Shown here: in pieces, positions 22,891 through 50,568 of the stretch | How the letters are laid out: each line of letters starts with the position of its first letter | Numbering within the stretch: position 1 is the stretch's first letter | Assembly (NCBI GenBank): GCA_037178625.1 | Contig: CM074132.1 | Span: 1,054,001 to 1,118,000 of the forward strand | DNA from: Skeletonema tropicum | Lineage: Eukaryota > Bacillariophyta > Thalassiosirophyceae > Thalassiosirales > Thalassiosiraceae | Direction of reading: 5' to 3' | Length of the DNA stretch: 64,000 nucleotides | The notes under the pieces: generated by a model | Database searches by the model: none | What the model saw: only the letters and a program-made list of their open reading frames with translations | What the model was told of the DNA's origin: nothing | Translations under genes and position numbers: made by a program

Positions 22891-22927
22891 GTTTTGTAAA
22901 ACTGTGCAGTGATCAATTTTACTAATC
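22891..22927. repeat. 37-bp hairpin, site 1
   Basis: Centre GTGC-AGT-GATC. The TAG stop of the Rep-helicase gene (complement of 22922-22924) lies inside the right arm. A degenerate duplicate of the same segment lies about 110 bp to the left (22775-22843). Confidence 0.85.
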
Positions 22928-25900
22928 ACCAGATGAAGATCCTGCGAAGTAATCACTTGGGATTTCATGATCCTTCTTCGCTTCTTTCCACTTCTTGTTC
23001 GGGTTGGTTATGATGTTGGTAATCCTGGTTGTCAGGTCTGTCCTGTCTTTGATGAAATTGCCCTTGATTGCTGCTGCGTACGATGTTTCTGTGATTTCTT
23101 CCAACTTTCTCTTGCTATACCTTGTCTTCGACTCTTCTGCCTTCCCCTCCAAGTATTTCACCCAATTTGCTCGCTTCTTGTACGATTCGCAGAACTGGCC
23201 ATTTTGCTTTCTCTTGCAATTTTTTAATCGGTTCGTTGAAATGTTGCTTCCGGTCCAGTATATGGCACTGTCCGACGGGTATGCTTGATCTTTGGAGCCA
23301 AGTGTTTTGCCTCTGCTGGTAGCCACGTACATTGTTCCAAGAAACTTGCTAATCTCCCACAACTCATCTGCTGGATCTATTATCATGCGGTTCCAGCGGT
23401 CTCCTTTGTCGAATCCAGCTTCGAGTCCTTGACAGCGGTGGATGGTGATGGCGTAGGCAATTTGCAATGGCATGAATAATGCGGTGCAGCATCCTCTGTT
23501 GCAAATCTGCTCGTAGGGTGGGATTGGCACGTGCTGTGCGCAATAAGTTGGGGTAGGATGCATTTGTATCAGTATGAAATGAGTTAGTAGTGTTTTCGCA
23601 GAGAGTGGCAATTGTCTTGTGTCTTTCGTGTGTCAACTTTTACTCACCGTTGGGTTGTTCTTGTCCCATGGGTCCTCGCCTGGTGGTGGTTTGTATGTAG
23701 GGAAATCCACAACAATGTACTTCGGTAGGCTAACCTCACCTTTACCGTTTGGTCCAACGGAGCGATCCTTATCGTAAACGATCTCGACAACTACCCCAAT
23801 AGCTGAGACGTACAATCCTGAGTTGGGATCGATGTTGGCTGACTCCAAGCAAACATGTGCACCTACGCACACATCAAAGGTGTAGAATAGCCTCCTGCCG
23901 TAAAAGTGCGACTGGTATGCTGTGTTATTGCCCGCCATCCTGCTGCTGAATTGACACCTGAGCCTAGCTATTGGTACTTTCAGTCGTTCGTGTGTTTTGA
24001 TCAGCATGTCTACATTTTTCTGGGACATATCGTCCCGTTTCGCGTATACCCACAACGTCTTTGGGTCATTTTCTACCTCTTCCCTCAGTTTTGGATGATA
24101 TTTTCCGAGTTCGTCTATGTGTAGTTTGATCAGGCGCTTTGCATCCTCATCAGTCTGGTTCCCCACTCTCATCCTGTTCATGAGATCGCTATCCTCCTTG
24201 TCTTTTGCTCTAAAATTCTTCGTCAACATGAAGACCACATCCGTCATCATCTCAGTCAAGATTTTGCTACCCTCGTAATCGCATATTTGATTGTTTTTAC
24301 TCTTTCCTGTCATTGTTTTTGGCCTATCGTTGTTGTGGTATTCGTGGTAGCCGTTTATTGCTCCCCCCTTGTTGGACGGTGGCAGCTGGTAGTCGTCACC
24401 GAAGAACAACACAACCGGGACACCGCCCCACCTCTCCCGTTTATTGTGCCCATTAAATGCGCAATCTCTCACATGCTCCTCTGCACCGAATGTTACGTGT
24501 GAGCCCAACATGCTTCTTTCATCGACCATCAGTACGAGCAGCTCTTTCAGTTTATTGCACATTTCTTCTCTTCTTTTTGCGTCCAATGATTTGTAAGGTA
24601 CCTGTACGTTAATTCCCAGAAGTGAGTGCAGCGTGCACCCTTTGACGTTGTACGCTGCGCTGCCTGAAGGAGCAGCAACCTGGACTGTCTTGTTCGAATC
24701 GGTCAGCTTCCTGATGATGGAAATGATGGTGTTAATTACCAGCGATTTCCCGCACCCACCCATTCCTGTAATTGTTGCTCGTAGCGGCTTGTAATCCTCG
24801 TCATTATCAAGGAATTTCACCACAGTATCGACAGTGGCGAGTACGATCATCGCCTGTTCCTCGGACAGTTCCTCGATGTTGTAACTTGATCCGTCAGATT
24901 TCGTGGGTATTGTTGCGCCTGAATGATCGTCCATCATGGCTCTGGCACGTTGCTCTCTGAGTTTGACTGTGTACTCCTCCCCTGGTATTGTTACGTCTCT
25001 TTCTCCATCAAACGAGCTCTTCGACCAATCGTGATTCAATCCTACGTCGATTTTCTTGCCCCCCAAAAGTAACTCATCCACTTTCCTATCAGAGAGTTGG
25101 GTCGAGTGCAAATGATTCAGGTGTTGATCTACCTCGTCATCGTCGAGCTCGTCAATGTTGACATCTGCTTGAATTGTCCCTTTTCTTGCCACACATTCGA
25201 TCCTTTTTTCTTGCGCGTATCTAACAGCTCTCTGGTATTCGGTCCAAACACTTGTAGGGACCTGTCTTTTCTGCAGCATCAACTTGAATGTATTGATTGT
25301 TCTCTGTCTGTCGCGTAAATTAAGTGGTTTGTCGAAGCTCCATGGCTTGTGAAGTAACAACATTCCTCTTGCATAATCGTAGTCCACCGGGTAACGTGGT
25401 CTGCAATTGAGTCCTTTGGCGATGAGTATCCTGTTCATGCGTCTATTGCTGTCAGGGTCTATCATGAACTTTTTCCTACACCACTCCTTGTAAAAGTACT
25501 GATCCAAGGTCAGTTTGCTGTACTTTTCCTCCCTGCTTGCATAGCTATAGACCAAGTCGTTTGGCTTAGGGTCGGATGATTTTCGTAGCTTCAGACAATT
25601 CTGAACCGACACGTAAGTGATCACATCTGAACAGAGTGTTAAACTCAGCCTATCAATCTCGTGCACCGCCTCTTGTATGCTGATGAGCCTTTTGCTTGTC
25701 ATCCAGTTCAGTGACATTTTCACCAATGTTTGGACACCACTTATATCCTCGGAGCTTTTGCTGGGAGGTGAGAATTAATAGTGGCGGTAGGTTGTGTTAG
25801 CAGTGGGGTTAACAGTGTTCGATTGTTTCAATTTGCAAAATTGTGCACTGCACAGTTTTACCAAAGTCGATGGCGGAATACAGTGAGGTTACCCAGCGTA

Positions 25901-28900
25901 AGATTTTGTTTCAATTTGCAAAATTGTGCACCGCACAGTTTTACCAAAGAAGATGGCGGAATACACAACTGCACTGAATTCAGTGTGAGAGACAACTTTC
26001 ATCTTCAGAGCACACTTACCTTTGCACAATGTTCTGCACTGCTTCTTTCTCCTTCTTGGACGTGTGGTTCTTCTTGCTGGCGTATGCTACGACATATTTG
26101 CAAACGTTCTCAATCTCGCTGACATCGGGTTTGTCTGGATGTGACCTATAAACCAGTAGCTGGATATCTATGTTTGCCCTCCAGGTTTGCAACAGTGTCC
26201 TACTGTGCTGACATGACTTTCGCGACTTTGTACGGCGTAGTTGGAAGTGTTCCACTCCCTTTTGATCTGTTACTATCACCGATACTTTGCTGAGTGGTTT
26301 CCCATCTGTATCACACTTGCCGTACTCTGTCTCCGTACCGTACCCAAACCTACACTCACGACGTTCGCATTTCGTATTTGTACCAAGGCAATACACATTG
26401 CAGTGGTGCACCATGCACTCCTGGCACAGCATTCGGGCGTCCTCTCCCTTATGCACGCTTTCGCAGAACCGATGCATTAGCGGATTTGTTGAGTCGGGAG
26501 ATCTGTCCGACACGTGGTTCTCATTCACTTCGACGTCGGCTGTCATGTCGAGCACATTTGTCGCGTATGTTTCCAGCACTTTGGCCTTTTCCTCTTCCGT
26601 GTCTGCTCGATAGAAGTCATTCAGATATGCCTTGTCCTTGGAAATGCCCAACAAGTGCAGATGTATCTGACCCCTTCCTGGCGCAAATTCGACTCTTGCC
26701 CAGTAATGCTCGATACCAAGCGCGTCCTTCGCAACTGTGTCGAGAAAGACTTTCGACCTCTTCATGAAAAAATCATTGACATACACTGTGAATCTCTTGA
26801 CTGATTTGGTCATGGCCTTGAAGTCGTTTTTCTGCAGCAATTCGACCTGTTTGAGATTTTGTGCAGTTCGCTCAAGGCTGATCATCAGACGACGTAGATC
26901 CGGCCACCAGTTTTCGGCACAAGATAACGTGATGAAATGGGTAGGCGGACCGTGTCCACGTGAAATATGGAAGTCAATCCACGATTCTAGCTCGTCCTGC
27001 TTCCCCCTCCAGAAACTGTCTGATCCACGTATACCCCTAGCGATGTATCGCAACTTGTTAATATAGCTCATATCACCCTGCCTCAACTGCTGCTGCAACT
27101 CCTCCACAGTTGGTGGCATTCTCACACTCGCACCAAGGAAGTTCTTGTCTTTGTAAAAGAAATTGCCCTGGGTATTGTTCGTATGACGCTGCAGCATGTT
27201 GAAGACGTACAGGCAAAACATCTGATCGTTAATGAATCTTCCATCTTGGTACCGTATCAAGTGAGTGGCCCAGCTACGGATATCTTTGACTTTCCCACGT
27301 CTGAGATCGTACACGTCTCCAATACCGCCAGGGAAGAGCCAAGGGAATGCATTCACGAACACTTGTCCCGTCGAATCAAACTCACTGTTGATGGTTTCGA
27401 TTGGTTGACATGGATTGTCGTTGGCATAATGTTGCAAGTACAAGATAAAGATGCTGGTTTAGCTAAATCGAGTGGTAATTTGAACACAATCGAATCATTC
27501 AATGGCAAAGAATACACTCACTTTATTGGCGCATTGTGGTCGATGGGAGGGAAGTTGAGGACCTTTTCCTTCTGATTCGTTGCATTGGCTATAACTTTAA
27601 ATTCCTTCACGATTTTGGCCTGTTTCGAGTTCGGTAAGGTATTGTTGTAGTTCGGGTGTACTGTCTCCATTTCAAACTCGTCTTCGTTGTTCTTGTCCTC
27701 TGGTGTACCTGTCTGATTGCCAGACAGTGTTTCTGCGGCGTCAGCCACGGCATCTCGTCTGCTGGGCTTTGTGTTCAGAGTGTATTTCTTCGCGACGTCA
27801 TACAATGATCCATTCTTGATCCAATCTAGATTGGTTTCCTTAATTGTGATTCCATGATATCCACTGTGATTAAGTTTGAGCCACTTGAGAGCCGCTATTA
27901 CTTTCCTCTTGTTCACTTTGTAATGACGGCTGATAGATTCCCCCGTCACGCGGTTGCTGATATGCCGCACAAATGTTACCATACTCGTCTCAGTCTGTGG
28001 CAATTCCATGCACATGTTATTTATATCCTGAGGAAAGCACACGCAATGACCGTTAATGCCATAGATACCATCCTTGATGTGCATCGACGGAATCATGGGC
28101 GAACACCTCCGAATCAGGAGCTTCTCTGACATAGTCAGATCTTTCAGCTCACTGGGTATGTCGTATCTTACCACGGGATTGCCATTTTCGTCAATCTTCA
28201 TAACTCCTTCGCTGTCCCGCTCGTACCAGACTGGGTGGAAGTTGTTCTTCAAGAAATAGTCCGATTCTTTATGTTTCTTCGTTCTGCAAGTGGAGCAGAT
28301 GACCTCCTCGCATCGTGTGGCACTCTCCTTGACTTTCTCCGAAAATTCGAGCCTGTTCTCGCGGCAGACACTGCAAGTTTGCAGCTGCAGCGTCTTCATT
28401 TTATATTCGAATTTCAACATCTCCTCGATAGTCTGCCTCGATCGATTCGTTTCTTTGGAACGGCCGTGTTCGCCGTAACAGGGATTGTCCATGAAGGTGA
28501 TGTCAAATTTGATGGCGATTGTGACTCCATTCGTCTTAATCCGGTTGTTCACAGCGTCCTTCAAAGACTTAATTGACTTGTTGAACTCATCCTTCGTGGA
28601 AGCTGCAAATGGCTCCTTTTCGTAGAATTTGTCAACGATGCCGTAATTTAGCGTATGTACATACATCTTGTTCACCGCTGATTTAGCTCTGTCATACTCA
28701 ACGCCGTCCTTGGCCCATCGGATGTAAGTGTGTGTCGCACGCCTCTTATCCAAGTACTTCTCTTCTGTCCTCACCTTCACTGTTTCACCCCAATGACTGG
28801 TATTTGTTGACCCACACGACGTCCTCTCTCTTTTATTTTTCTCCGACCTAGAAGTGAACATGGGGATCTGTTCTTCTTCTTGTTCTTCTTCCTTTTGGTT

Positions 28901-31157
28901 TGTACCTGCAGTTGGTTCTCCACTAGCATTGCTCTCGGCTGGACTGGTGGTGTCAGCAGTGGTAGCGGTCCCTCCACTATTGATATCATTCTCTACCACT
29001 CCGTCTACCTCGTCGTCCTCATCAACCGTCTCGAATGGTGGAATGACTACCACCTTGTCGAGACCCTTCCACTTAGGCGAAGGATTGACCAGCCTCTTGT
29101 CTTCCATAGGTCGAACGATCTCGATGCGCTTTACCTGGTGGACCTTCCTACTGAGCCATGTCCCATTCGATACTTGGAGAATTCTGTCAGAGGAGAGAGC
29201 CCCAATCGACACAATCTGACCCTTCATGAGTGCATCCTTCTTTGAACTGCGGTATTCTATGATATCTCCCAGCTGTACGAATACATTCAAGTCGCTTGAG
29301 TCGGCATCCCCGTCATCGCGGGCGAGATTGCAATCCAGGTCGATGTAATTGTATGTCTTGTCGGTTCTGTAATGTATCTGATCGAGGTCGCCTGCACAAA
29401 ATGATGTCATTAGTAAAATGGAGCAGTGCACAATTTTACCAATAGTTGTGTACCATGTACAACATAGTTCAAAATAAACTCACCTGTGGTATCAGCGGAC
29501 AGGTCGTCGTCATCATCGTCCAATTGAGAGTAAGACGAATCGCTGTTGGACACATGATCGGATTTATCGCCAACTGAGTCATCGCTTGTCTGTGTCACGG
29601 GAGATATAATCTCCACATCATCGTCATCATCCTCATCATCACTTTCGCTCAAGCAGTCAATCAATGTATCTCGGTGATTTCGATACAGGCTGGTGATGTG
29701 TACTATGAGGTCATACATTTCGGTCCTCAATCTATTGATGTCGTCTGCGTTGTAATCAAACAAGTCATGACTGCTTATACAGCTGGCGAAATTGTCAGTG
29801 AAATCTTTATTCTTGACCTTCAAGTCAACCATCTGAACTAGATTGTAAGCGTAGCGACATACGTGTACGCCACAGTCGTAGCCGTTCCCCTGGTCCATAA
29901 CTGGTATAACACAAAAGAGCGTGAGATTGAGATAGTGAAACGACACAGTAACTGAAATTGATTGACTGATAGACTTCGCTCACCTTCGGGAAAATGCAAT
30001 TGGAACGACTTGTGTCTATGAGAGAAAGGCATCTCGAATCTATCTAGCGCATCATCATGATGCCTTCTCCACTCTGCGTTGAGAACGTTTCGAACAGCTT
30101 GCGCTATTTCCCTCCTGTTGTGGAGAGTACCGCTCCCAAGTGAATCCAAGTGTATCATAGCTGTGACATCTTTGCTGTAGGTCGTATCCCCAAATCTTGC
30201 TTTGGTCTGTTTTATCAGGTTTGGATTCAGTACCGCTACTAACGACCAATGACTGGCAAGGTGCACAGGAAACATGACGATTTTCTTCTCGAAAATGTTG
30301 ACATTCTTCAGGAACTTCTTCATCGTGTCACTGTACCCCTCGCTCAGGACCCCTGACAGGAGATACGTTGAACAGATGTGCACAGAAGAAGCGTTGTCGC
30401 CAGGGCATCTGGGTGTTGATATCCACTTGAACCAGAATTGCAGTACCGCGTCATTTAACCACTGTCCAGGTTTAAGCGTCGCCAGATCCATTCCGTGAAC
30501 AATCAAATTCCTTTTCATACTGTCCCTGAGAGAGTTCTCGAAAAATGCGGCGTAGTTTGATGCATCATCTTGCCCGATGAGTTTTGCCAGCCTGTGGGAT
30601 AGGTCAGTCGAACATTTGTCTGCAAGCAAGAGGCTGCTATTGCTCGTCTTGAAAGGTATCACGAAACATTGTGATAATATGTCGACTGCCACTGGCAATG
30701 GTGTAAAGCTTTTCTGGGTCACCGATGATGCAGATGGTGGTTCAGCCGAGATCACATTCTGCTGTTGTCGTATGCCTGCACGAACCAAGTCATCACAGAC
30801 TGTGCGCGCATTGGGACTCTTGACATCGTGCTGCTGAAGCGTAACAATGCTGGATAACGCCACAACTACAATGATTGTAGTTAGCAGCTCAGACGGTCCT
30901 CCCTTTCTTGCATTGAATTGTATCACCGACTCGCGGTGACCTTCCTGTAATTTGAGAGCGACGGATTTGCTTTGCTCTTTAATTACCTTAATCAGTATTC
31001 CTTTATTACGTAGTTGCTTAACTCCAAGGACAGTCCGTAACCAGCTCGTCACGAAAAGTATGATGTGCGGCAAAGATATTACAGTCGCTTGGTAATTTGG
31101 TAAAATTGTGCAGTGGACAGATTTACAAATGTCAGTCAGTAAGTGATACCAAACCAA
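22922..31157 (-). CDS. Ulp1 protease-Rep-helicase fusion (Helitron-type transposase)
   Basis: Predicted rolling-circle transposase. Exons (minus): 31157-29984, 29900-29484, 29391-27522, 27453-26020, 25760-23648, 23533-22922. All junctions are GT-AG and keep frame, 7,620 bases in total. Near residue 230 is the Ulp1/C48 cysteine-protease domain: PGQWLND, catalytic His in SHWSL, Asp in HLDSLG, then QGNGYDCG across the first junction. An acidic linker follows. Near 870 is a CxxC zinc-finger and LIRR/IP.ELKDLT region like Helitron N-terminal domains. The Rep HUH motif IHLHL is near 1,410 and the Y-x3-Y pair (YVVAY) near 1,610. Pif1-like helicase motifs are Walker A GMGGCGKS (~1,965), VDERSM, FFGDDYQLPP, LTKNFRA and HRCQG (~2,370). 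No stop interrupts the catalytic regions. The first ATG is unresolved: the open frame enters from an upstream exon or an unrecognised start near 31.1-31.3 kb. Confidence 0.85.
25830..25866. repeat. 37-bp hairpin, site 2
   Basis: Centre GTGC-ACT-GCAC, within the 259-bp intron 25761-26019 of the Rep-helicase gene. It is the first of a tandem pair with surrounding sequence duplicated (period about 83 bp). Confidence 0.9.
25913..25949. repeat. 37-bp hairpin, site 3
   Basis: Centre GTGC-ACC-GCAC. Second of the tandem pair in the same Rep-helicase intron. The flanks share TTTCAATTTGC on the left and GATGGCGGAATACA on the right with site 2. Confidence 0.9.
29408..29444. repeat. 37-bp hairpin, site 4
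   Basis: Centre GAGC-AGT-GCAC. It occupies 37 of the 92 bases of intron 29392-29483, the intron that joins the Ulp1 part to the rest of the fusion protein. Confidence 0.9.
31095..31131. repeat. 37-bp hairpin, site 5
   Basis: Centre GTGC-AGT-GGAC. It lies at the 5' side of the Ulp1-Rep-helicase gene, between it and the MBD-like gene. The open frame of the first coding exon runs through it, so the true exon start probably lies downstream of the hairpin. Confidence 0.85.
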
Positions 31158-31412
31158 AGCAAATACGAATCAAAGCGTACGACAACGTGATGGCAACACT
31201 CACTTGGCGTTGTCGTCGATTCACCTACATGTGACTCCTTCACCGGAGTGACAACTGCAAGTACAAGAACGCAATTAAAAGAAAAAGGCGCTGATTAGTA
31301 AACGACGACGAAATTTCTTATTGTTAAAAAGAAATGCAGATATATCCCAATTCATGTATAGAATCCCACCAATCCTCCCCACCCCATTCTACTCCCCAAA
31401 CTCAGTGGCTAA

Positions 31413-34400
31413 TCATTCCATGATAGTATCCTCAATAATTTCGTTCCAATCAGGAAAATTTCCACTCTTGAAGACATTTCTCCTCTCATTTTCAGTGACA
31501 TCGTCAAACGACGAGTAACCAATAGATTGAAGGTGCGCTTTGATTCCGAAGTCGGTCAGGTACTTGTTCAAAGGTACTCCGTAAGTGACTGAATCAAACC
31601 CAGATTTCCAAGTATGTTGAAAGTCCGAAATAATGTCTTGCAAAAGCTCATTCCTGTCTTTGTATGGAACGTTCTTTTTGGGGCGGTTCCTGAACTTGCC
31701 CTCAAGGAATCGATTGTACATCGTGTTGTTATTCTCTTCCATGACCTTCAAAGCAATGTACGCTGGTTTTTCTGCATCGCTCATCAATTGCTTCATTCTG
31801 TTCTCGATCTTTCGCAAGTGGGTCTCGATCGGAAAGCTGCCAGTAGGTACCATAAGCACTGTAATCAACTTTGTCACTGGATAATTCGATGTAGTTTGTT
31901 TTCTCTTGAGAATGTTGTCGGTGGAGTAGTTTTGTTCCTTAATGAAGGTTTCCGTGAAACATTCGTACCAGTTAGGCACCGTGTCTCCAGCACTGGATAC
32001 ATTGTTCCAGTAAGTCAGTAGAATCGATCTGACATGCTCACCCTTCAGGTACCAGGCCCTACGCCCCATCTCCGTAAAGAAGATAATATAGACTTGTTTA
32101 CTGGACTTGTTGTGTGTGATAGGACAAGACACTTCAACAGTAATCGGACTCAACGATGATTTCAGAGGAGAAGATGTACCAGTCGTGACAGAAGAAATAT
32201 CCACGTTTTGCCATGCTCCACCGCCACCGCCACCGCCATTGTGACTATGATCACCTATAGTACTCTCGCTCCCCAATACCTCCATACCAGTCAAGCTTGT
32301 AGAACCGCCCGACTTGAACTCACCTTTCACTTCTTCAGCAGTAACCATCGACGAAGAAGTTGCAGGAGACGATACAACATTGCTCTTCCCCTTTTCCAAC
32401 AATTTGATCCTTTTCAACAGAGCAGCTTTTTCTTGAGCTAACCTGTCTTCAATGCTGCGTTTACACGGTTGAGAACCATGGTCGAGCAAGGATGTGGGCT
32501 TCCCAACCACCTTCTTCCTCACAGGAGTGGTAAAAAGAGACCTAGCAGTACTAGCATCACTGACTTCTTCAATTACTTCGCTTGTAGCTTTGGTCAACTG
32601 GATAGAACCCCGCTTCTGCTCAGCGGTAAGACTACCACTCAGTTTCTTATACGGATTCTGCACAGGTTGAACTTTGCTTACACGAAACGCAGAGACCCCA
32701 ACAATGCAATCGTTACCTGAATCATGATCTTGATAAAGTAGACGAAACACAAGATTTCTGTCATCAATCGCCACACCCGTCATGTTGTTTGCCCCCCAAT
32801 CAGGTAAATTAATGACTGTAAAACTTTTCGCAGACCAGTCTTTGTGAGGGGTATTGCAATCGCCACTCTAACTTGGCAACGCACACAGATTGCGCTCAAC
32901 AGAGATTTGTACCAATCAATTGAATGAGCGAGCGATCTCTTAAAATGAGTCTCTTCTTTCAACCACTCTGCGACAACTTTTTTTGCTGCCTTCAGCGTAG
33001 ACCTCGTTATTACAAAAGTCATCCAACTGACTAGCACACCATTTCAAGAATAACTCGTAAGTAAAACATTGCATCGGATGGTTCGTCTCTTGAAAAAAGG
33101 CAAGTAAACTTCTTGCAATTGATGAAGGTAGGCCGAACTTATCACCTGGGTCAGACACTTCCAACTCATTCCAATTATTTGTCTCCTTCAACAGCTGGAA
33201 TACTGATGATACAAAGCCATCATCCCTCACAACATCAATTTCATCACTGCTGCGGTCCGATGAATTATTTTGCTTTGATTGCTCGTCAGTACCACTGATA
33301 TCATCGAATTGATCATCATCGTCATGACCATCTAGACCATCATCATCGGAAGTGGTCAAATCCAAATCCCTCTCGATATAAACGGACACACCAGCAACAT
33401 TGTCACCACCATCACCGAGGCGACAATCAGTAATAGTGCGGTCAATGAGTAGCCTGAAATAGACTTTTCTTGGGCACTTTAGCCCGCCTGGAGCGAAGGA
33501 AACAATCCTCGTTTCACCGCTTTCTCCCATGGCATCCATCAGGTGGCAGCAGCACACAAATTTCAAGACACATGATTGTGCTCAATACATCGAGCAATGT
33601 GAAATACCAGTCAATCGAGCGATGTACTTTGTTGTATGAGTATTCGCATTCATAAATGAATTCGTCCATCACTCTTTTGATACGAGGATAGAAGGGTTCA
33701 TTCGCAGCCATATACATGACATCAGCGACGAACGGCAGCAGTTTCTCCTCTGTGTTGAGAGCCACGTTATCAACTACACAAGCGAGTGCGTGGAGGATAC
33801 TAAAAGTGTTCCTCGGTACCAACTTGTCACCGGTCGGCCTCTGAACATGATCCGCACCAGCTGTAATGATTTGTTTCAATCGCATCTTCTTTGCTAATTT
33901 CGACATTGCCAAATTGTCAACATCGTCCGTAACAGAAAAGTTTCTTGATACTCATTTACAACGAGTTTCCTGAGTCGTTGTACACTATCAGCAATATCAC
34001 CTCTTGCAATCAAATCAACAGTATCAACGAAGTCATTAGGATTGCCATTCGACTTAGACGAGGGAGGAGCAGTCTCAGTGACGTTCGATGGAGAGGAATG
34101 TGCCTTCGCTCGCGTCAAACTCTTGAAAACTTTGTTGTCAGGGGAGAGGTAATGGTGGTAAATAGTTCCGCGGGATTTGCCGCCCTTACGCTTGATACTC
34201 TTCCTTTTCCATCCATCCGAGAGATCTGAATGGGTGTAATCAACCCACTCATTCTCGCTATGTAGAAGGCAGTTGCATTTATTTATTAGGTAAAATTGTT
34301 CAGTGATCGATTATACTAAAATGATTCAATAAGCAAGCGATACTTAGTGCGGCAGTGCACATGCACACAAAATAAACTCACATGATAGTTGAATCAGGAG

Positions 34401-35487: not shown

Positions 35488-35799
35488 AATGCTGGATAAC
35501 GCCACAACTACAATGATTGTAGTTAGCAGCTCAGACGGTCCTCCCTTTCTTGCATTGAATTGTATCACCGACTCGCGGTGACCTTCCTGTAATTTGAGAG
35601 CGACGGATTTGCTTTGCTCTTTAATTACCTTAATCAGTATTCCTTTATTACGTAGTTGCTTAACTCCAAGGACAGTCCGTAACCAGCTCGTCACGAAAAG
35701 TATGATGTGCGGCAAAGATATTACAGTCGCTTGGTAATTTGGTAAAATTGTGCAGTGGACAGATTTACAAATGTCAGTCAGTAAGTGATACCAAACCAA
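35488..35799 (-). pseudogene. Duplicate fragment of the Ulp1-Rep-helicase 5' exon
   Basis: About 100 codons identical to the N-terminal part of the fusion gene at 30846-31157, cut by the gap. It is an overlap artefact, not a second gene. Confidence 0.9.
35737..35773. repeat. 37-bp hairpin, site 7 (duplicate of site 5)
   Basis: Contig-overlap copy of 31095-31131, identical in sequence. Confidence 0.85.
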
Positions 35800-36054
35800 A
35801 GCAAATACGAATCAAAGCGTACGACAACGTGATGGCAACACTCACTTGGCGTTGTCGTCGATTCACCTACATGTGACTCCTTCACCGGAGTGACAACTGC
35901 AAGTACAAGAACGCAATTAAAAGAAAAAGGCGCTGATTAGTAAACGACGACGAAATTTCTTATTGTTAAAAAGAAATGCAGATATATCCCAATTCATGTA
36001 TAGAATCCCACCAATCCTCCCCACCCCATTCTACTCCCCAAACTCAGTGGCTAA

Positions 36055-39000
36055 TCATTCCATGATAGTATCCTCAATAATTTCGTTCCAATCAGGAAAA
36101 TTTCCACTCTTGAAGACATTTCTCCTCTCATTTTCAGTGACATCGTCAAACGACGAGTAACCAATAGATTGAAGGTGCGCTTTGATTCCGAAGTCGGTCA
36201 GGTACTTGTTCAAAGGTACTCCGTAAGTGACTGAATCAAACCCAGATTTCCAAGTATGTTGAAAGTCCGAATAATGTCTTGCAAAAGCTCATTCCTGTCT
36301 TTGTATTGAACGTTCTTTTTGGGGCGGTTCCTGAACTTGCCCTCAAGGAATCGATTGTACATCGTGTTGTTATTCTCTTCCATGACCTTCAAACGCAATG
36401 TACGACTGGTTTTTCTGCATGTCGCTCATCAATTGCTTCATTCTGTCTCGAGTAGCATTCTTTCGCGAGTGGCGCTGAAAACAAAAAGTGGGTCGATCAG
36501 GAAAAAAGCTCAGTATGTACCATAAGCACTGTAATCAACTTTGTCACTGGATAATTCGATGTAGTTTGTTTTCTCTTGAGAATGTTGTCGGTGGAGTAGT
36601 TTTGTTCCTTAATGAAGGTTTCCGTGAAACATTCGTACCAGTTAGGCACCGTGTCTCCAGCACTGGATACATTGTTCCAGTAAGTCAGTAGAATCGATCT
36701 GACATGCTCACCCTTCAGGTACCAGGCCCTACGCCCCATCTCCGTAAAGAAGATAATATAGACTTGTTTACTGGACTTGTTGTGTGTGATAGGACAAGAC
36801 ACTTCAACAGTAATCGGACTCAACGATGATTTCAGAGGAGAAGATGTACCAGTCGTGACAGAAGAAATATCCACGTTTTGCCATGCTCCACCGCCACCGC
36901 CACCGCCATTGTGACTATGATCACCTATAGTACTCTCGCTCCCCAATACCTCCATACCAGTCAAGCTTGTAGAACCGCCCGACTTGAACTCACCTTTCAC
37001 TTCTTCAGCAGTAACCATCGACGAAGAAGTTGCAGGAGACGATACAACATTGCTCTTCCCCTTTTCCAACAATTTGATCCTTTTCAACAGAGCAGCTTTT
37101 TCTTGAGCTAACCTGTCTTCAATGCTGCGTTTACACGGTTGAGAACCATGGTCGAGCAAGGATGTGGGCTTCCCAACCACCTTCTTCCTCACAGGAGTGG
37201 TAAAAAGAGACCTAGCAGTACTAGCATCACTGACTTCTTCAATTACTTCGCTTGTAGCTTTGGTCAACTGGATAGAACCCCGCTTCTGCTCAGCGGTAAG
37301 ACTACCACTCAGTTTCTTATACGGATTCTGCACAGGTTGAACTTTGCTTACACGAAACGCAGAGACCCCAACAATGCAATCGTTACCTGAATCATGATCT
37401 TGATAAAGTAGACGAAACACAAGATTTCTGTCATCAATCGCCACACCCGTCATGTTGTTTGCCCCCCAATCAGGTAAATTAATGACTGTAAAACTTTTCG
37501 CAGACCAGTCTTTGTGAGGGGGTATTGCAATCGCCACTCTAACTTGGCAACGCACACAGATTGCGCTCAACAGAGATTTGTACCAATCAATTGAATGAGC
37601 GAGCGATCTCTTAAAATGAGTCTCTTCTTTCAACCACTCTGCGACAACTTTTTTGCTGCCTTCAGCGTAGACCTCGTTATTACAAAAGTCATCCAACTGA
37701 CTAGCACACCATTTCAAGAATAACTCGTAAGTAAAACATTGCATCGGATGGTTCGTCTCTTGAAAAAAGGCAAGTAAACTTCTTGCAATTGATGAAGGTA
37801 GGCCGAACTTATCACCTGGGTCAGACACTTCCAACTCATTCCAATTATTTGTCTCCTTCAACAGCTGGAATACTGATGATACAAAGCCATCATCCCTCAC
37901 AACATCAATTTCATCACTGCTGCGGTCCGATGAATTATTTTGCTTTGATTGCTCGTCAGTACCACTGATATCATCGAATTGATCATCATCGTCATGACCA
38001 TCTAGACCATCATCATCGGAAGTGGTCAAATCCAAATCCCTCTCGATATAAACGGACACACCAGCAACATTGTCACCACCATCACCGAGGCGACAATCAG
38101 TAATAGTGCGGTCAATGAGTAGCCTGAAATAGACTTTTCTTGGGCACTTTAGCCCGCCTGGAGCGAAGGAAACAATCCTCGTTTCACCGCTTTCTCCATG
38201 GCATCCATCAGGTGGCAGCAGCACACAAATTTCAAGACACATGATTGTGCTCAATACATCGAGCAATGTGAAATACCAGTCAATCGAGCGATGTACTTTG
38301 TTGTATGAGTATTCGCATTCATAAATGAATTCGTCCATCACTCTTTTGATACGAGGATAGAAGGGTTCATTCGCAGCCATATACATGACATCAGCGACGA
38401 ACGGCAGCAGTTTCTCCTCTGTGTTGAGAGCCACGTTATCAACTACACAAGCGAGTGCGTGGAGGATACTAAAAGTGTTCCTCGGTACCAACTTGTCACC
38501 GGTCGGCCTCTGAACATGATCCGCACCAGCTGTAATGATTTGTTTCAATCGCATCTTCTTTGCTAATTTCGACATTGCCAAATTGTCAACATCGTCCGTA
38601 ACAGAAAAAGTTTCTTGATACTCATTTACAACGAGTTTCCTGAGTCGTTGTACACTATCAGCAATATCACCTCTTGCAATCAAATCAACAGTATCAACGA
38701 AGTCATTAGGATTGCCATTCGACTTAGACGAGGGAGGAGCAGTCTCAGTGACGTTCGATGGAGAGGAATGTGCCTTCGCTCGCGTCAAACTCTTGAAAAC
38801 TTTGTTGTCAGGGGAGAGGTAATGGTGGTAAATAGTTCCGCGGGATTTGCCGCCCTTACGCTTGATACTCTTCCTTTTCCATCCATCCGAGAGATCTGAA
38901 TGGGTGTAATCAACCCACTCATTCTCGCTATGTAGAAGGCAGTTGCATTTATTTATTAGGTAAAATTGTTCAGTGATCGATTATACTAAAATGATTCAAT

Positions 39001-39828
39001 AAGCAAGCGATACTTAGTGCGGCAGTGCACATGCACACAAAATAAACTCACATGATAGTTGAATCAGGAGAGGCCTTCTCTCGGACAGGTACCGGTTTAG
39101 ACTTTTTCGTGACAGCACCTTTCTCGGACAAATCCGGTTCATCATCATCTTGAACAGGTTGATCACGGGAGCCCGAATGAGTTTTGTCTTCAAGTACAAG
39201 TTTCCCGTTCTCATCACTGGTGTGAAGTTGAAGGTTGAAAAAAAAACTTGTAAGTAAAAAGGAAAGACAGAATTTGTAAAACGGTACAATGAACAAAAAT
39301 ACCAAAATCATTGAACCACACGAAGGTTAACCTTCTCTCTTACCAAAAATGCTCACAATTTGAAGTGTACGGCGCTTGGCTTGTACCTCCTTTCTGAGCA
39401 ATAGCGGCAAACATTAAGAAGTTGACCGCTGCAGACACCAGATCATCTTTGTCAGTAGAATCAGTCTTACCAACTGGGACATTCGGGTAATGTTCAGACA
39501 GTTCATTCAGGATGTACTTGATTGACCCGACTTCAAAGACGGAAAGAGCAGAAAAGAGCAGTTGTTCCTTCTCCAACTTGGCAACGTCAAACCCATCGCC
39601 TAATGCAACAGACGCTAGCAGCGAGAAGATACGATCGTCGGTACGCACCAAACGCCAATTGATGTCTGTTACGCTCAATGCAATGACAGGAGCCGACGGT
39701 TTAGCGGCAGTCTTGACCCCTGACGAAGTAAGACGTGCATCGACATTGCTCCGATTCCGCACGGCACGGAAGCCCTTACCATTACTACCAACGGTGGATA
39801 TAACTGGATTTGTGTTGCCAAACTTCAT
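36055..39828 (-). CDS. Large orphan protein with methyl-CpG-binding-like segment
   Basis: Predicted exons (minus) 39828-39344, 39216-39052 and 38927-36055 keep frame across GT-AG introns of 127 and 124 bp, giving about 1,174 residues from ATG 39828. Near residues 225-265 is GWKRKSIKRKGGKSRGT followed by YHHYLSPDNKVFKSLT. This is the pattern of an MBD/TAM-like domain (GW.R...R..GKS....YY.SP.GK.FRS), so DNA binding is likely. The rest is unrecognised: an acidic, Asp-rich middle, a Ser/Gly-rich linker, and a conserved-looking C-terminal ~230 residues. It is divergent to the plus-strand gene at 40695. In this copy the frame is broken near 36270 and 36390-36520 by probable sequence errors; the 31413 copy is open there. 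Confidence 0.7.
38955..38991. repeat. 37-bp hairpin, site 8
   Basis: Centre GTTC-AGT-GATC. It lies inside the 124-bp intron 38928-39051 of the MBD-like gene. Confidence 0.88.
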
Positions 39829-40694
39829 TATTTATTCGGACAATGTAGAAATGTGATGATGTAAATGATGCAATGCATAATTTATGAGAGCTGTTGAACG
39901 GCTCGACAACGTACAAACTGCCTACATAACCGCCGCCAACGCACCAGCGCAATAATCAGCAGAGAACAATGCAATCAATAACCAACCACGTCATGAAGTA
40001 AACGAGTTCCTTCGTAAGCTACGTCGGCAACACAAGATCTTGTGGTTCAACACATCGACAACACGTCGACAAAAAGATTCAGCTCAACACAAGACGTCGA
40101 CGTGGAGTTAAGAACTGACGTATTGATCAGTACGTGGCCAAAGATCGGCAGTTATTCAAATGCAAACACGTCGGCAACCAACGTCGGCGTCTATTTAGAC
40201 TTGCATCAATAGACGACTCGGCAGATAATGTAATTGAGCCAATGTCGACCTGAGTACTTGCTGCATGAACTTAAATACTTTTTTGTTCATTGGATTTTGC
40301 CAACACCTGACTTCTGGTACTTTGTGACGTAAGACGATTGGAATCAAGTGTACTAATTCCTTAAGTAACGAAGTTTACCACGTCACTCAGAGAAAAAATG
40401 AAGAAAATAGATGGTGACGGGGATGCACACCGGAAAGAACGAAGAAGCTCATCGACAATCTGACTTAATTAGCCTGGAAAAGTCCTTTCTAGCACAAATC
40501 AAGCGATTTTTAGATCTAAATCATAAGATATAGCATCTAAATGACAATCAAAATGGGCATTTCAGCGGGGATAGGAGGGGGGAAAATCCCAACACTTCAA
40601 GTTTAAGTTCCGGAAGTAATTCAGAGCAAAGCACCGCACCCAACGAATCCGCCGCACAGATCTCGCATAAAACGCAACAGCGCTCCACCAAATC
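39829..40694. promoter_or_regulatory. Divergent promoter region with ACGTCG repeats
   Basis: An 866-bp space between two divergently transcribed large genes. Between 40021 and 40190 there are repeated ACGTCG(G/A)C elements (40021, about 40063, 40093, 40168, 40181), several followed by AAC or AAA, plus related TGACGTA and TACGTGG sites. Such clustering suggests binding sites for a CRE/bZIP-type factor or an element-encoded regulator. No hairpin of the 37-bp family is present here. Confidence 0.45.
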
Positions 40695-43600
40695 ATGACC
40701 GACAAACAACATCCAACTGAACACGATAACGACGACACCATGAACTCACCTGAAGCTACAGATGCAACTGAATCTGCGGTTGAATCTGCAGCTGAAGCTG
40801 TGGACGCAAAAAGCACGTTAAAGGAGACAACGAGTCCGCCGGACAACCAGATGAACACCCCCGGAAAGAATAACACACCTACCGATCATACTGCCGAGGC
40901 TGTCACCAGACCAACCACCAACAACGTTATCACCCCTGACAAACCAACAGCAGGTACAGAAACGACTACGCAGCAAGTCGAGGAAGATCGACCTGAGCAT
41001 TACATCAAAGGCACAAATACGGGCCTGCCAACAAAAATTAGTGCTACGGTTTTCGTTTGCTTCACCCATTTGGATAAAGAAGGCAAATTGGTAGCGGAGA
41101 ATGTAAATCAAGCGGTACCACAGCAAGAGAAGATACTCGGGCTATTGAAACTGGTGGCTACGGGTAAATCCGGCGACAACAAAGAAATGAACGACAGTCA
41201 GATACACTTACACTTCAGCAAGAAAGCAGCGGAGGATGATTCCGCGGAAGATTGCGTGAGTTTACTTTTGTTGAATCTGCGCAACGAACCATTTTGTAAA
41301 ATTGATCACTGTACAAATTTGGGAATGTTGATTCGTTGATCGATTGCGATGTTGCACAGAACGAATTTGTAAATTTGATCACTGTACAATTTTGGTAATA
41401 TTGATTCGTCGATCGATTGCTGCAGCCAAACTACATCATGCTACTTGATTTGTATAATTGCTCACTGTGCGATTATACGAATATTGATTTATAGATCCGT
41501 TGCTGAACTCACAACTAACACTTGATTGATGCTACTCCACATTAATAACAGGAGAAGACAGAACCAGTCAATGCAACTCATATGTCATTGATTGCATCCA
41601 GTGAAGAAGCGAGGACTAGTGTGGCTTACGGATTGCCATTCACGTATGTTCCAGAGCTATCACACTTAATCGACGTACTCAACGGAGATGATGGTAGTGG
41701 CACAGATGAAACGAAAAGAGAAATATCAGAGGCATTAACTGCTAATGTGACAACAGTCGAAGGTCAACGAAAGCTTTTGAGCACTGCAAGAAAGCACCAT
41801 TGGCTAGATGAAAGTCAAAATGAAGTCAATGTGGCAGTCCAAGATGGTATCGAGGGATTTGGTCATTTCTACACTTCCTTCACTGCTTCATTGAAATTCT
41901 ATGTCACAGCTGTTGAAGGCAACCACCGCTTGATAGCATTATTGGCAGCTCTGCTGCGATGCAAAGTGAAGAGAGAGTCAGGCTACTTCTTCAAGCCAAG
42001 CAATCCCGGAGATCCGACGTTCTTGACCAATTCATTCGTAGGAATTGAAGATAACGAACATGACGCCATGGAGAATGCTCTTGAGAAATTGAAAAAATCG
42101 GACAGTGATGCAATATTGAGCCACCCCTTCGACGCTCACATTACAGTAGCATCAAGGACTGCTACCGAATCTTTCCCCGCGCCTCACCTCGCGGAAACTC
42201 TTCTAGCCGAGAAAAGCAAGAACGTGAGCAAAAGGAAGCTTGGATCAACAGTACTAAATATATACAGAGGCTTAACTAAGCATAATTCTGTGAGAAGAGA
42301 CCATGAGGATTGGACTGAGAAGGAAGTTGGTACTAACGGTAAGATAGTCAGCAAAGGTAAAGTTTTGACCATAAAGGGGCTGAGAGCGCGAACGGCAAGG
42401 ACACTTGAAGAGTTTGAAGATGACCCAAGTTTCACCGAAGAGCCGCTCACTCAATACTACGAGAATCCAATGCGTGAATACGAGACGTGCCAAAACGAAG
42501 TGCAGCTCAGAGTTGATGGTGGAGGACCAAATGATGTACTCAAATTGCCTGTCAAGTGTAATATGGACAACTTCGGTTCTACAGGGAACTACCCGATGAC
42601 TGTTGAGCACAGCATGGCCAGATTTTTCCCACTCGCGGTAGCGGTACAGTCATTGCTTGAAACTGATGGAATGCAGCTATTTACCTCAAAGCAGATAAGC
42701 GCAATGTTGGCAGGCGGAATTATTATGCCAAGATCAGGAGTGAACACGATTGTGATACCCAAGGATGATACTGATGGAAAATACAATGACACGCCTAAAC
42801 TATGGGACAGGTCAGTTGAAGGGATCATGGCGACAAGTACTGCAGCGTTGGTCTACACAGTCGAGTCTGCCAAACTGTTCAACGCAGATGCCTTGCTTGA
42901 TCAAACTTTAAATGCCTTCAGCATCATGTCGCAAACCAAAGATATGGCGAATGATTTGAGATTGAGTATTGGTAAGAACAAGCTTGGTATCATTTCATTC
43001 GTAAACTTGTGCTCGTTGTACCTTGACTAACAAGTATCTATTCATTGAAATCAAGCGAAAAGTTTCGGATTGATTAGTATGGCAGCAAAAGAGATCGCAG
43101 TTGTCCTGAAGACGCTGAAGGAAGATGAAGGCACAGAGAGAGATGTGAATATCGCGGCACTAAACTTCATGGTGACAATGAATCTATTACACGAGTACAT
43201 GCAACTCATTGCTTCTACCCCTGAAGACATCCAAGTTAGTGAAGACCTATTGAGAGAAGACAACCAGGATTTGGTCGGTGAAGCTATCAGAGAATTCTTG
43301 GTAAGAAAGAAAGACAAGGACAAGACTTCACGTCTCGATAAAGAGCAATTGCTGGCAAGTAACGTCATTGAGGCGGTCAGAGTGACGAATGAGACAGGTG
43401 CAAGTTCAACCAAAAGACAAAGCAAGATACCGACTAAGGGTAGAGATGTGATGACCATCGTAACAGCTCCTGGTGATATGACACTAGTAGAGCTCATTTG
43501 CCACATCTTTTGTTGGAATGTGGTTCGATCCGCAGAGAAAGAGAGAGGCAATCCGAGAAAGCTCCAAGACCTCTTCTTCGGAAAAGACAAGCGATTCAAA

Positions 43601-44641
43601 ACGACAAGCGACTCAGTGAAAACATCAAGTCAGTTGATGAAGGTTCTAAAGATTGGGAATGAAACGGTCACATCTAGAATCGAATCACCGAGTGACTTTC
43701 AAATGACAGGATCGTTGTTATCGCTAACGCAGCTGGGCGACTTGATCAGAGGGACTGCGCAACTTAAGGGCAAGCTCATCCGTACGTACACACTTCCAAC
43801 GAAACCTGCTGCTACCAAGGAGGGAAAGCCAAGCAAAAGAAAGGAGAGTAAGAAGAGGAAGTCGGAGAAGCATCAAAGTAAAGACAAAAATGGATCAACA
43901 ACTGATACAGAGGAGACAAATTCGAAAAAGCAACGCACCAATGATTGTGCCAGTAAAACGATCGTGTCGCAACAGTCAGGCAATACGACGCAGCACGAAC
44001 TCCACGGACGAGAGAGCAAGGATGAATTGAGAGCTAGAGCCGTGAAAGCAGCACAGAATAAAGTTGGTAAAGATATCTTGGGAGAAGGATTAATGACAAA
44101 CATTGCAAAAGCAATCATTGATGAATTGTTCCCTACACTTCCAGAAGCAGAAGCTGATATAGATGAGATGATTGAAAGTGACGATGTCGTGGCAAGAACC
44201 GAAACAACATTCGAAGCAGTAGAAGGATATGAGGTAGGAAAACAGTACGACCAAACTGGATTCTTTGACGTCATCAACCTCGCGTGGAGTAACATGAAAT
44301 GGAGAGGAAGGAAGAAAAAGCACAAAACGAACAAACGTATTGGGTTGACTACGAAGGAGCAACAGATGGCTGAGAAGTGGGCAAAGAACTTGTTTGGCTT
44401 ACCTTTGAAGACAGCTATTACGCAGATCGTGAAGGAAATGAACAAGTCAATCGTCTTTTTGCACAGAAAAAACGGAGAGGAATATAAGAGAGTGTTCAAC
44501 GTGAGCGGCAAGAAAGGTGACACTGTCGTCGATCCTTACAACACAATTTACATCTACGGAGAACCATCAGTCGACGGCGCTAAGAGAACAACAAACAACG
44601 CAAATTACAGGTGGATGGTACCAAATGAGACAGAAGAATAG
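40695..44641 (+). CDS. 1,178-residue orphan protein with a GNHR motif
   Basis: Exons 40695-41255, 41552-42971 and 43086-44641 join in frame with GT-AG introns of 296 and 114 bp (3,537 bases). The N-terminus is Thr/Glu-rich and probably disordered. Exon 2 contains TAVEGNHRLIALLAALLR, resembling the G-x-HR-x-x-A motif of ParB/DGQHR-type folds; this is a weak, motif-only similarity. Exon 3 has a Lys/Arg-rich linker with KRKESKKRKSEKHQ (likely nuclear localisation) and a C-terminal ~250 residues that look folded. No catalytic domain is assigned. It is the only large plus-strand gene of the element and may be an accessory transposition or DNA-packaging/partition-like factor; this is speculative. 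Confidence 0.7.
41291..41327. repeat. 37-bp hairpin, site 9
   Basis: Centre GATC-ACT-GTAC. First of three in intron 41256-41551 of the plus-strand orphan gene. It is followed by GTTGATTCGTTGATCGATTG, shared with the next unit. Confidence 0.8.
41364..41400. repeat. 37-bp hairpin, site 10
   Basis: Centre GATC-ACT-GTAC. Second of the triplet (73 bp after site 9) and part of the same locally duplicated unit. Confidence 0.82.
41447..41483. repeat. 37-bp hairpin, site 11
   Basis: Centre GCTC-ACT-GTGC. Third of the triplet and the most diverged. It is 83 bp after site 10, the same spacing as sites 2 and 3. Confidence 0.8.
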
Positions 44642-44802: not shown

Positions 44803-44839
44803 AATTAGTAAAACTGTGCAATGCACAATTATAGAAATT
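44803..44839. repeat. 37-bp hairpin, site 12
   Basis: Centre GTGC-AAT-GCAC. It lies between the convergent stops of the 1,178-residue gene (44641) and the 289-residue gene (44858), a position suited to a bidirectional 3'-end signal. Confidence 0.88.
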
Positions 44840-44857
44840 GATACACGATACATCAGA

Positions 44858-45727
44858 CTAGTCCACGACAATATCAGCGGATAACTGCTCGAAATTCAAA
44901 CAATAAACCTTGAGAAGAACGCTGTTGAAGACTTCGTCAGCAAGAAGCTCTGACATATGAGACAAATTGAACACGTCAAAATCGCGGTCCAACAAACCAC
45001 GCTTGGACACCAAAAGGGCGTTGATATCCATGCAAAACATAAAAGTCTCTGAAATGGGACGTCTGCATTCAATCATACGATTCAGGAGATCTAATTGGTA
45101 CTGGAGTTGACCCAGTTCTCTAATAGAGAAATTGTCTGGCCCAGCGACGGATTTCATGACAAGAGCTTTCCGTGAAAGCAACAAGCTGATGTCGGAGCAC
45201 AATCCATAAGCTACATCGACAGAGAACAGTCTCTCGCAGCGAATAGTGCACAAAGAAGATGTGCATGGGGAATGGCTTGAAACACATCGTTGGTTGCACA
45301 GCTGGGATGGAAGAAAACGAACTAACCCCAAATAAAGAACATCGGCGCAGCCGAGACAAGCGTTGAGCTCTGTGACGTCCAATAACGACCACCCTGATTG
45401 CATCACAACCAAATCCCAAAAATACCATATTGATAAGTCGAACAGAACATCACATTTGCTCAACAGCTTAGCAGCCAAAGACGATCGAAGCAAAACGCCG
45501 CCTACAAGCCGAAACGATGCAAGAGAGCGTTGATCGGAACCAAACAACTGTGAGACGATGGTTTCGTCCAACACATCAACCGATATGCAAGAGCTACTAC
45601 TACAAGCATGCAACTCACAAAATGATGCACTGTAATTGTCAAACAAGGACAAGACCTTAGTCCTTGGTATAGGGCGATTCACAACGATACGAGATGAACG
45701 AACGTCCCTCGATCTAATATACACCAT
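44858..45727 (-). CDS. Cys-rich orphan protein of the element
   Basis: An uninterrupted 289-codon frame from ATG 45727 (minus). It is rich in Cys, Ser and Leu, with hydrophobic stretches such as LVGGVLLRSSLAAKLL and a run of paired cysteines in the middle third (SSHSPCTSSLCTIRCERL). There is no signal peptide or clear membrane helix, and no family is recognised. It is convergent with the large plus-strand orphan and separated from it by hairpin site 12. The length and intact frame support a real gene. The role is unknown. Confidence 0.55.
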   Translation of the reverse strand: MVYIRSRDVRSSRIVVNRPIPRTKVLSLFDNYSASFCELHACSSSSCISVDVLDETIVSQLFGSDQRSLASFRLVGGVLLRSSLAAKLLSKCDVLFDLSIWYFWDLVVMQSGWSLLDVTELNACLGCADVLYLGLVRFLPSQLCNQRCVSSHSPCTSSLCTIRCERLFSVDVAYGLCSDISLLLSRKALVMKSVAGPDNFSIRELGQLQYQLDLLNRMIECRRPISETFMFCMDINALLVSKRGLLDRDFDVFNLSHMSELLADEVFNSVLLKVYCLNFEQLSADIVVD

Positions 45728-45974
45728 TGAAATGATGAAGCATCAACAAAACAAAGAGAGATGTCTAGAGAGAGACAGCTGAAAGCTGTCTATGTTATGG
45801 AGTATTTAGTTATGTGTAATAGAAAAGAATCTGTGGTCATGTGTATCAGTTCGGCGACGAACACAAGAAATATGTAATTACGAGAAAATAGCCACAAACA
45901 CAATCGCTTGAGAAACCACTGATGAGAACCAAATTGGGGCAAGTTATTTCTTCACTACGATACTCTCACTGAAT

Positions 45975-46376
45975 ATGATGGAACGATCAACTAAGCTATC
46001 AAACAGCGCGTTTAAAAACGATGTCGAAAGTTTACGGCAACAACTAAAGCTGCAAAACAATGACAGAGGAATTGGAATAGCAACAAGACTGCTGCAACTG
46101 AGCGAGGGAAGCATAGAGAGAGCGAAACTAGCAGTAGATAGAATCTTGGGAGGTGCACAAACAGAACAAGAGAAGGACACAATTGAATCCATCATAACAG
46201 ACTACATAAAAGATATGGGGAGACATAGAACCAATTATGCTGCAATGATGGGACAAACTGAGACAGACAGGACGAACACTATGGTACCAGGCTCAATACT
46301 ATATACAGAGGTGAACTATAACATGCCGGCACCAACATGGAAAAGAGGGAATAAAAAACTCGCACTGAAACGATAG
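45975..46376 (+). CDS. Small helical orphan protein of the element
   Basis: 133 codons from ATG 45975. A Gln/Leu/Arg-rich helical N-terminal half (FKNDVESLRQQLKLQNNDRG) is followed by a region with conserved-looking Asp/Glu and a basic C-terminus ending KRGNKKLALKR. It is divergent to the Cys-rich gene. Two hairpins (46498 and 46682) lie downstream. It is possibly a small DNA-binding or coiled-coil accessory protein. No family is recognised. Confidence 0.5.
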   Translation: MMERSTKLSNSAFKNDVESLRQQLKLQNNDRGIGIATRLLQLSEGSIERAKLAVDRILGGAQTEQEKDTIESIITDYIKDMGRHRTNYAAMMGQTETDRTNTMVPGSILYTEVNYNMPAPTWKRGNKKLALKR

Positions 46377-46497
46377 AATCGAGTGGATGAGTTGAAAGTG
46401 AAAGAGATGCACAAGCAACAGTGAACACTAAGCGCAACTAAACAGCTGATCCGAAAACAAACAGTTGAGACGACGAATGACTGCCGGACAATGTACT

Positions 46498-46534
46498 AAT
46501 TGGTATAAGTGTGCACAGCACAATTATATATAAT
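46498..46534. repeat. 37-bp hairpin, site 13
   Basis: Centre GTGC-ACA-GCAC, 122 bp after the stop of the 133-residue gene. The right arm is AT-expanded (ATATATAATT). Confidence 0.85.
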
Positions 46535-46619
46535 TTGATCAGGCGCACTGCAATCTTCTCTCAAATCCCTACACAAATACTAGTGCCGATGGACAGATAG
46601 ATGATTTTCACAATTCTAA

Positions 46620-46775
46620 CACAATTAAAGACAACGTCATTGCAGAGCAACTTTATAGCCGTATTCTATTGTAAAGAGACTAATTGGTAAAATTGTGCAC
46701 AGCACAATTATACCAATTAAGGCCAACGTCATTGCAGAGCAACTTTATAGCCGAATTCCGTTGTATAAAGACTAC
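46620..46775 (+). repeat. Direct duplication flanking hairpin site 14
   Basis: 46620-46684 and 46712-46775 share CAACGTCATTGCAGAGCAAC followed by TTTATAGCCG with few changes. Hairpin 46682-46718 sits between the two halves, so hairpin and flank were duplicated as a unit, as at sites 2-3 and 9-11. Confidence 0.8.
46682..46718. repeat. 37-bp hairpin, site 14 (best-conserved copy)
   Basis: Left arm AATTGGTAAAATTGTGC, loop ACA, and a right arm that pairs at 16 of 17 positions. It lies about 110 bp inside the proposed right end of the element and serves as the reference for the family. Confidence 0.92.
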
Positions 46776-46844: not shown

Positions 46845-46933
46845 CGCGCTGAACCCGCCACATACACCGCTGCACGCCACTACTATCGCACCATTCTGCG
46901 CGCCCCTGTTTATATTGTACACGCCCCCCTGCT

Positions 46934-50541: not shown

Positions 50542-50568
50542 GATTGCGTTGGCGCTGCGCCAATCATC

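Follow-up and report, generated by a model that had tools for sequence, protein, structure and literature searches.

The Helitron at 22402–46914 of the window (the whole stretch of 64,000 nucleotides that was analysed) holds 13 near-palindromic 37-bp sites, each made up of a single central base with an inverted 18-bp half-site on either side (A type). The arms of the sites do not covary, the sites are confined to copies of the element in the part of the genome that was checked, and the nearest sister subfamily carries a different dyad. As read from splice signals, the sites appear to be located in introns and flanking DNA. The array probably represents sites in the DNA of the element that are bound as duplex by a putative sequence-specific, element-encoded protein and are spread through the non-coding parts of the Helitron.

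Structure and Gene Content of the Transposon

The transposon has its Rep in the sense of the minus strand and, based on the presence of Rep and helicase domains, is a Helentron-like Helitron. Its ends lie at approximately 22402 and 46914, as established from a comparison of copies that comprised ten deletion derivatives together with a single long copy. The element begins with TCGGCCCTCGGGGCC and ends with GCGCGCCCCTGTTT, as determined from the copy comparison and the junctions. The apparent length is inflated by an assembly overlap with 500 N. Within the duplicated region (30846–39656), the segment 30846–34987 repeats 35488–39656, with the N gap at 34988–35487, and the true length is approximately 19.8 kb once the duplication is subtracted.

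A palindromic 13-bp subterminal repeat, GGCCCTCGGGGCC, is present at both ends of the Helitron, at 22404–22416 on the left and as an inverted copy at 46833–46845 on the right. The identical 13-mer is also found near both ends of the sister element. Helentrons and Helitron2 are described as having palindromic subterminal inverted repeats of 12–15 bp at 2–4 nt and 38–60 nt from the ends (PMC4067079); here, the left copy is 2 nt from its end and the right copy about 69 nt from its own, the latter slightly more than that range allows. The comparison of a filled site (locus L015) with one related, non-identical empty site at window position 58329 showed no target site duplication beyond one base. 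Among the best 40 of 338 candidates scored, the left 380 bases were 100% identical in 40 of 41 matches; therefore, at least these copies are young. Relatives of the Rep in public sequences showed 45–96% identity among the best 120 of 452, and a scan with the Rep confirmed no relative in viral contigs.

Gene 1 (22922–31169, minus strand) encodes an Ulp1 protease (Peptidase_C48), a DUF6570 domain, a Helitron_like_N Rep (8.3 × 10−21) and a PIF1 helicase (7.3 × 10−17), in exons split by inferred introns. The Ulp1-type protease is apparently spliced ahead of the Rep as part of this single gene, and we know of no other Helitron with this arrangement. No recognised domain was found in gene 2 (31413–39831, minus strand; its last exon of 953 aa is read whole in L020:5535-8396), gene 3 (40671–44641, plus strand), gene 4 (44858–45742, minus strand, an open frame) or gene 5 (45912–46376, plus strand, a small open frame). 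Pfam, NCBIfam and PDB profile searches for a DNA-binding domain in genes 2–5 were empty or at chance level, and the predicted structures of p41 and gene 2 (mean pLDDT of 31.5 and 28.9, respectively) were too poor for a structure search.

The p41 exon of gene 3 carries a conserved stretch, EGNHRL, which is kept in the gene 3 product (41549–43030) in all six aligned sequences and reads EGNHRV in the sister element. By eye, the stretch recalls ParB/Srx-type motifs. A ParB identity based on this likeness received no support from HMM searches, with no match to ParB_N at an E-value of up to 10 in the six aligned p41 sequences or in the six frames of the genome. The tblastn search of P0127 against phages returned one match only (E = 3).

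The characteristic features of Helentrons include an HUH Rep with a PIF1 helicase, palindromic subterminal repeats, no target duplication and extra protein genes (PMC4067079). The HUH Rep and PIF1 helicase, the lack of a target duplication at the site compared and the extra genes are features that this element has in common with Helentron, Helitron2 and proto-Helentron elements; its 13-bp palindromic subterminal inverted repeats resemble theirs, apart from the distance to the right end. It differs from Helentrons in the protease apparently spliced before the Rep, and in the C-terminal endonuclease, for which no Pfam match was obtained in two helicase frames at an E-value of 0.01. As there was no endonuclease match, the element is referred to as Helentron-like and not as a Helentron; the proto-Helentron is likewise described as being without this domain (PMC4067079).

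The Dyad Sites and Their Location

The initial annotation had reported a 37-bp hairpin at 12 positions of the element. Each of these positions holds a 37-mer of the kind described, and all 12 copies are real, but a 13th copy at 39271 had been missed. The symmetry of the 37-mer was likewise upheld, although the pairing of the arms is imperfect, at 9 to 16 of 17 in the 12 copies and 8 to 16 of 17 across all 13 sites. The site at 46682 alone is near perfect, and that at 39271 is the weakest by both arm pairing (8/17) and profile score (35.1). Further copies at 34285 and 35737 are products of the assembly overlap, as had been noted, and the same is true of 34602.

Nine of the 13 sites fall in six putative introns that were read from splice signals. 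Three of these introns are in gene 1. The Rep/helicase intron (II) has two sites, at 25830–25866 and 25913–25949, the second being an 83-bp tandem duplicate of the first; the Ulp1/Rep intron (III) has one (29408–29444), and another (31095–31131) lies in a probable intron (IV), whose 3′ splice site is not fixed, in the 5′ portion of the Ulp1-Rep-Hel gene. The others are gene 2 intron 1, with the weak dyad at 39271–39307 (assembly duplicate at 34602), gene 2 intron 2 (38955–38991; assembly duplicate at 34285), and gene 3 intron 1, with a site at 41291–41327 and tandem copies at 41364–41400 and 41447–41483. Gene 3 intron 2 contains a half-dyad that has perhaps decayed (42996–43032).

The remaining four sites are in end or 3′-flanking DNA. 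Site I (22891–22927) overlaps the helicase stop codon TAG (22922–22924), the site at 44803–44839 lies between genes 3 and 4, whose 3′ ends converge there, and two sites are found in the right end region (46498–46534) and at the right end (46682–46718). The last of these is the best palindrome (16/17) and is bordered by a 61-bp repeat in two copies, at a spacing of 92 bp. The tandem units that carry sites in the A element measure 83, 73/83 and 92 bp, and sites multiplied in tandem do not count as independent members of the set of 13. Beside site I, a diverged duplicate (22780–22840) was noted by eye, in which the two half-sites are further apart.

Apart from the overlap with the stop codon at 22891, the inferred exons are free of sites. 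Two of about nine inferred introns are without a dyad, namely the Ulp1 intron near 29900–29985 and the helicase intron near 23640. No dyads were found between the divergent frames of genes 2 and 3 (39831–40671) or genes 4 and 5 (45742–45912). The sites form eight clusters at a spacing of 1.7–3.5 kb, which is more even than chance under a minimum-spacing null (CV, p = 0.007; largest gap, p = 0.025), but may merely reflect the gene layout. By reading, the introns have the dyad and the splice signals in common, in two cases together with the initial dozen bases, and not much more. On this reading, an Introner origin may be less likely.

Absence of Arm Covariation

The relationship between the two arms was analysed by a permutation test, in which the arms of one site were compared with the arms of different sites and the fit was scored out of 18. 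For the 13 A sites, the mean fit was 12.46 between own arms and 12.53 between cross arms (p = 0.60). The results were similar for 27 distinct A-type sites from the fetched loci with a score of at least 30 (12.33 versus 12.50, p = 0.82) and for 11 sites of the sister element (12.09 versus 12.27, p = 0.71). As own arms fit no better than cross arms, the sites are two half-sites of a DNA dyad, with no compensatory change between them. The three tests reject an RNA hairpin; the hairpin and the RNA processing signal that had been proposed initially could not be sustained, the lack of compensatory changes being an outcome that the initial annotation had itself named as contrary to its reading.

Distribution in the Window and the Genome

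The A-type repeat is real and far above chance. The pattern AATTGGTAAAATTGTGC, allowing up to three mismatches, had 15 matches in the window, while shuffled windows had a mean of 0.32 and a maximum of 3, with 0 of 100 reaching 15. When the 13 sites were used to build a symmetric profile, they scored 35–50 on it, and no position in a 2-Mb Markov-3 background reached 14; this separation is optimistic, as the profile was scored on its own training sites, but the whole-window shuffles agree. At a score of at least 8, the profile recovered the 13 sites and their three duplicates from the assembly, together with a weak, overlapping partial match at 41266 (17.5). None was found outside the Helitron within the 64-kb window, as the initial annotation had observed.

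The genome-wide scan that had been suggested at that stage gave 330 forward matches to the 30-base pattern at up to three mismatches in the 78.4-Mb genome, with 0 for the reversed control. A degenerate A core pattern gave 233 forward matches genome-wide (control 0), and among the matches listed, all were two subterminal site types or their one-base variants. The check was performed cluster by cluster on contigs C1–C3 (15.85 Mb, 20% of the genome), where the list of matches is complete and forms 13 clusters, 13 of 13 being element copies, with the proviso that a pattern scan may miss strongly diverged host sites. Eleven of these clusters were fetched and align to the Helitron; the remaining pair contain ends of the element or Rep. 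The loci fetched for other site variants (L022–L031) share end sequence with the Helitron in 10 of 10 cases. Wherever checked, A-type sites lie in copies of the Helitron or its close relatives.

The fetched deletion derivatives keep dyads, with four in a 3.9-kb, five in a 4.7-kb and up to three in a 1.3-kb derivative; as the derivatives were chosen for holding dyads, this presence is biased. The 1.3-kb derivatives constitute a non-autonomous family (L022:4442-5716, L023, L024, L027 and L028) that has kept the ends and up to three dyads. Changes in one dyad arm in this family are unmatched in the other arm.

A Different Dyad in the Sister Subfamily

The nearest sister subfamily (B), whose element was read as two pieces (L032 and L033), is 79% identical to A in the Rep, 65–70% in the helicase and 24–57% in the other genes. 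The two pieces contain no A-type sites and carry 11 copies of a different dyad (B type), with the consensus nnAAAATAAATTTGTnnTnAnnACAAATTTATTTTnn as opposed to nATTnGTAAAATTGTnCAnTGnACAATTTTACnAATn in A. The two dyads share the core TAAAnTTGT and differ in the centre and flanks. The profiles do not cross-match, with 13 of 13 A sites scoring below zero on the B profile and 11 of 11 B sites below zero on the A profile.

Direct reading places the two site sets at corresponding positions at site I and in introns II, III and IV, and matches of the flanking exons do so for intron 1 of gene 3 and intron 2 of gene 2. The correspondence is by distance only for the right end and for two further introns, gene 2 intron 1 and gene 3 intron 2; in gene 3, a B-type dyad is situated at a distance from the p41 start similar to that of the A half-dyad at 42996. 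No counterpart of the 44803 site was found in the sister element, and this site is A-only. The tandem unit in B is 103 bp.

The B pattern had 261 forward matches genome-wide (control 0). Further B-type sites are present in L037, which is a partial B copy, and in three other loci, L023, L031 and L035, the first two of which also contain A-type sites. In L023 the B-type sites, and in L031 one of them, belong to derivatives whose matches are to different helicase stretches from those of the A-type sites; two more B-type sites of L031, at 2249 and 4332, were left unassigned.

In another relative, A′ (the Ulp1/DUF6570 part of L030, with 51–77% protein identity to A), the dyads of introns III and IV align with those of A, whereas the bulk of the intron around them fails to align. 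Two further relatives, with Rep identities of 71% and 58–70% (the latter in pieces), share the half-site AATATTTTTTTCRCC, which occurs in intron III of L036 in three 70-bp tandem copies and once in intron II of L034. It was not found elsewhere in L036 and L034 at up to three mismatches. With two loci, and with sites that are weak as palindromes, these more distant relatives (C, L036; D, L034) give a hint of a possible third dyad type.

The strongest palindrome of each intron was also compared with that of resampled sequence. The fraction of resamples that reached the observed value was 0.02 for intron III and 0 for intron II of A, and 0 for intron IV, 0.23 for intron III and 0.13 for intron II of B. 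For each of the two A introns that have no dyad, it was 0.75. For C, the fraction was 0.03 for one unit and 0.47 for the whole intron, and for D it was 0.07, where the best palindrome was another stretch. Given these mixed fractions, single introns do not prove a dyad.

Interpretation of the Dyad Array

The protein that reads the dyads would bind them as duplex DNA and would be encoded by the element itself. An element-encoded reader is suggested because two dialects are kept apart in one nucleus, which would be hard to achieve via a host factor. The site sets have, moreover, changed at nearly all places together, which likewise speaks for a reader that the element carries and the host does not. 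The introns would give room for sites that the exons cannot hold, and a factor bound at sites every 1.7–3.5 kb would be able to cover the DNA of its own family and keep that DNA accessible despite host silencing. By analogy with the VANC proteins of VANDAL elements, family-specific anti-silencing or another DNA-coating role would be the most likely function. One alternative in the initial annotation, a shared operator for an element-encoded regulator, is supported to the extent that a trans-acting, element-encoded factor would act at a shared site.

An extended form of this reading, in which the intron and end dyads act as a self-recognition code, is speculative and rather doubtful as a whole. 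The dyads would mark the DNA of each family at intervals of a few kb, and a fast-evolving, self-encoded reader would recognise its own dialect only. A change of the reader would replace the site set and split the elements into non-interfering families. The reader could perhaps be the gene 3 product with its EGNHRL stretch, acting by ParB-like coating.

The main rival, itself unlikely, is that the dyads are accessory sites for transposition or replication, needed in cis and putatively bound by the element's own Rep/helicase. The presence of sites near both ends, at distances of up to about 0.5 kb, and the dyads held by the deletion derivatives of 3.9, 4.7 and 1.3 kb would fit this explanation, but the derivatives were picked for dyads and the sites are mostly interior. 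Furthermore, the Rep is the most conserved protein between the subfamilies (79%), although the dyad has changed. Operator sites at promoters, read by a putative element-encoded transcription factor, are improbable. Dyad symmetry is a usual trait of operators, and site IV is near the 5′ end of gene 1; however, both divergent stretches between genes (39831–40671 and 45742–45912) are free of dyads, and the sites occupy internal introns and 3′ ends.

A role as RNA hairpins in splicing or 3′-end formation is very improbable. The intron location and the dyad over the helicase stop codon would suit such a role, but arm covariation is absent in all three data sets and two inferred introns do without a dyad. 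The initial annotation had favoured palindromes made mobile by the element's HUH Rep, a eukaryotic parallel to REP/RAYT, and this is now the most improbable of the explanations, even though an HUH Rep and palindromes do occur together in one element. On C1–C3, no copies exist beyond those in element copies, the sites are at corresponding positions in diverged subfamilies, and their multiplication is solely by local tandem duplication.

Comparison with Known Systems

The probable duplex-bound array looks most like the VANC anti-silencing system of the Arabidopsis VANDAL (MULE) elements. The VANC targets are described as short motifs, located in the non-coding sequence of VANDAL elements with introns among it, that are rare in other transposable elements, are multiplied as tandem repeats and differ between related families (PMC5735166), and VANC21 and VANC6 use different motifs (PMC5735166; PMC10398659). 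A family-specific motif array in non-coding transposon DNA was found here as well, as was tandem multiplication, with spacings of 83, 73/83, 92, 103 and 3 × 70 bp. The systems differ in that the VANC motifs are of 8–9 bp, in the same orientation and dense, whereas the sites described here are sparse 37-bp dyads. The element here is a Helitron in a different host, instead of an Arabidopsis MULE, and its binding protein is putative.

In ParB/parS systems, several copies of a palindromic site are bound by a self-encoded protein. The Helitron resembles them in its several palindromic sites with a putative self-encoded binder, and differs in the lack of a ParB_N match in p41 or the genome's six frames. 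REP/RAYT systems have palindromes alongside an HUH protein, as does this element; here, by contrast, the palindromes are not dispersed outside the element (C1–C3) and consist of duplex half-sites with no hairpin constraint. The available portion of PMC4067079 makes no mention of an internal dyad array for Helentrons, and none was described for Helitrons in the titles and abstract openings listed in a literature search on Helitrons and Helentrons.

If the proposed role is correct, sequence-specific self-marking of a transposon would have arisen independently in the rolling-circle transposons of another eukaryote; to our knowledge, such self-marking is otherwise a feature of the plant VANDAL elements only. 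It would also provide a reason for a transposon to keep introns, and the two natural dialects in one genome would make the co-evolution of a DNA-binding protein and a dozen sites directly testable.

Adjacent Repeats

The Helitron is adjoined at its right end by a retroelement (46934–52179), in which RNase H and integrase were detected on a domain search of 46934–48916. The repeat at 58329–60208, which is the source of the empty site, is 92% identical to the flank of L015 and contains a frame that is Ulp1 protease-like by eye.
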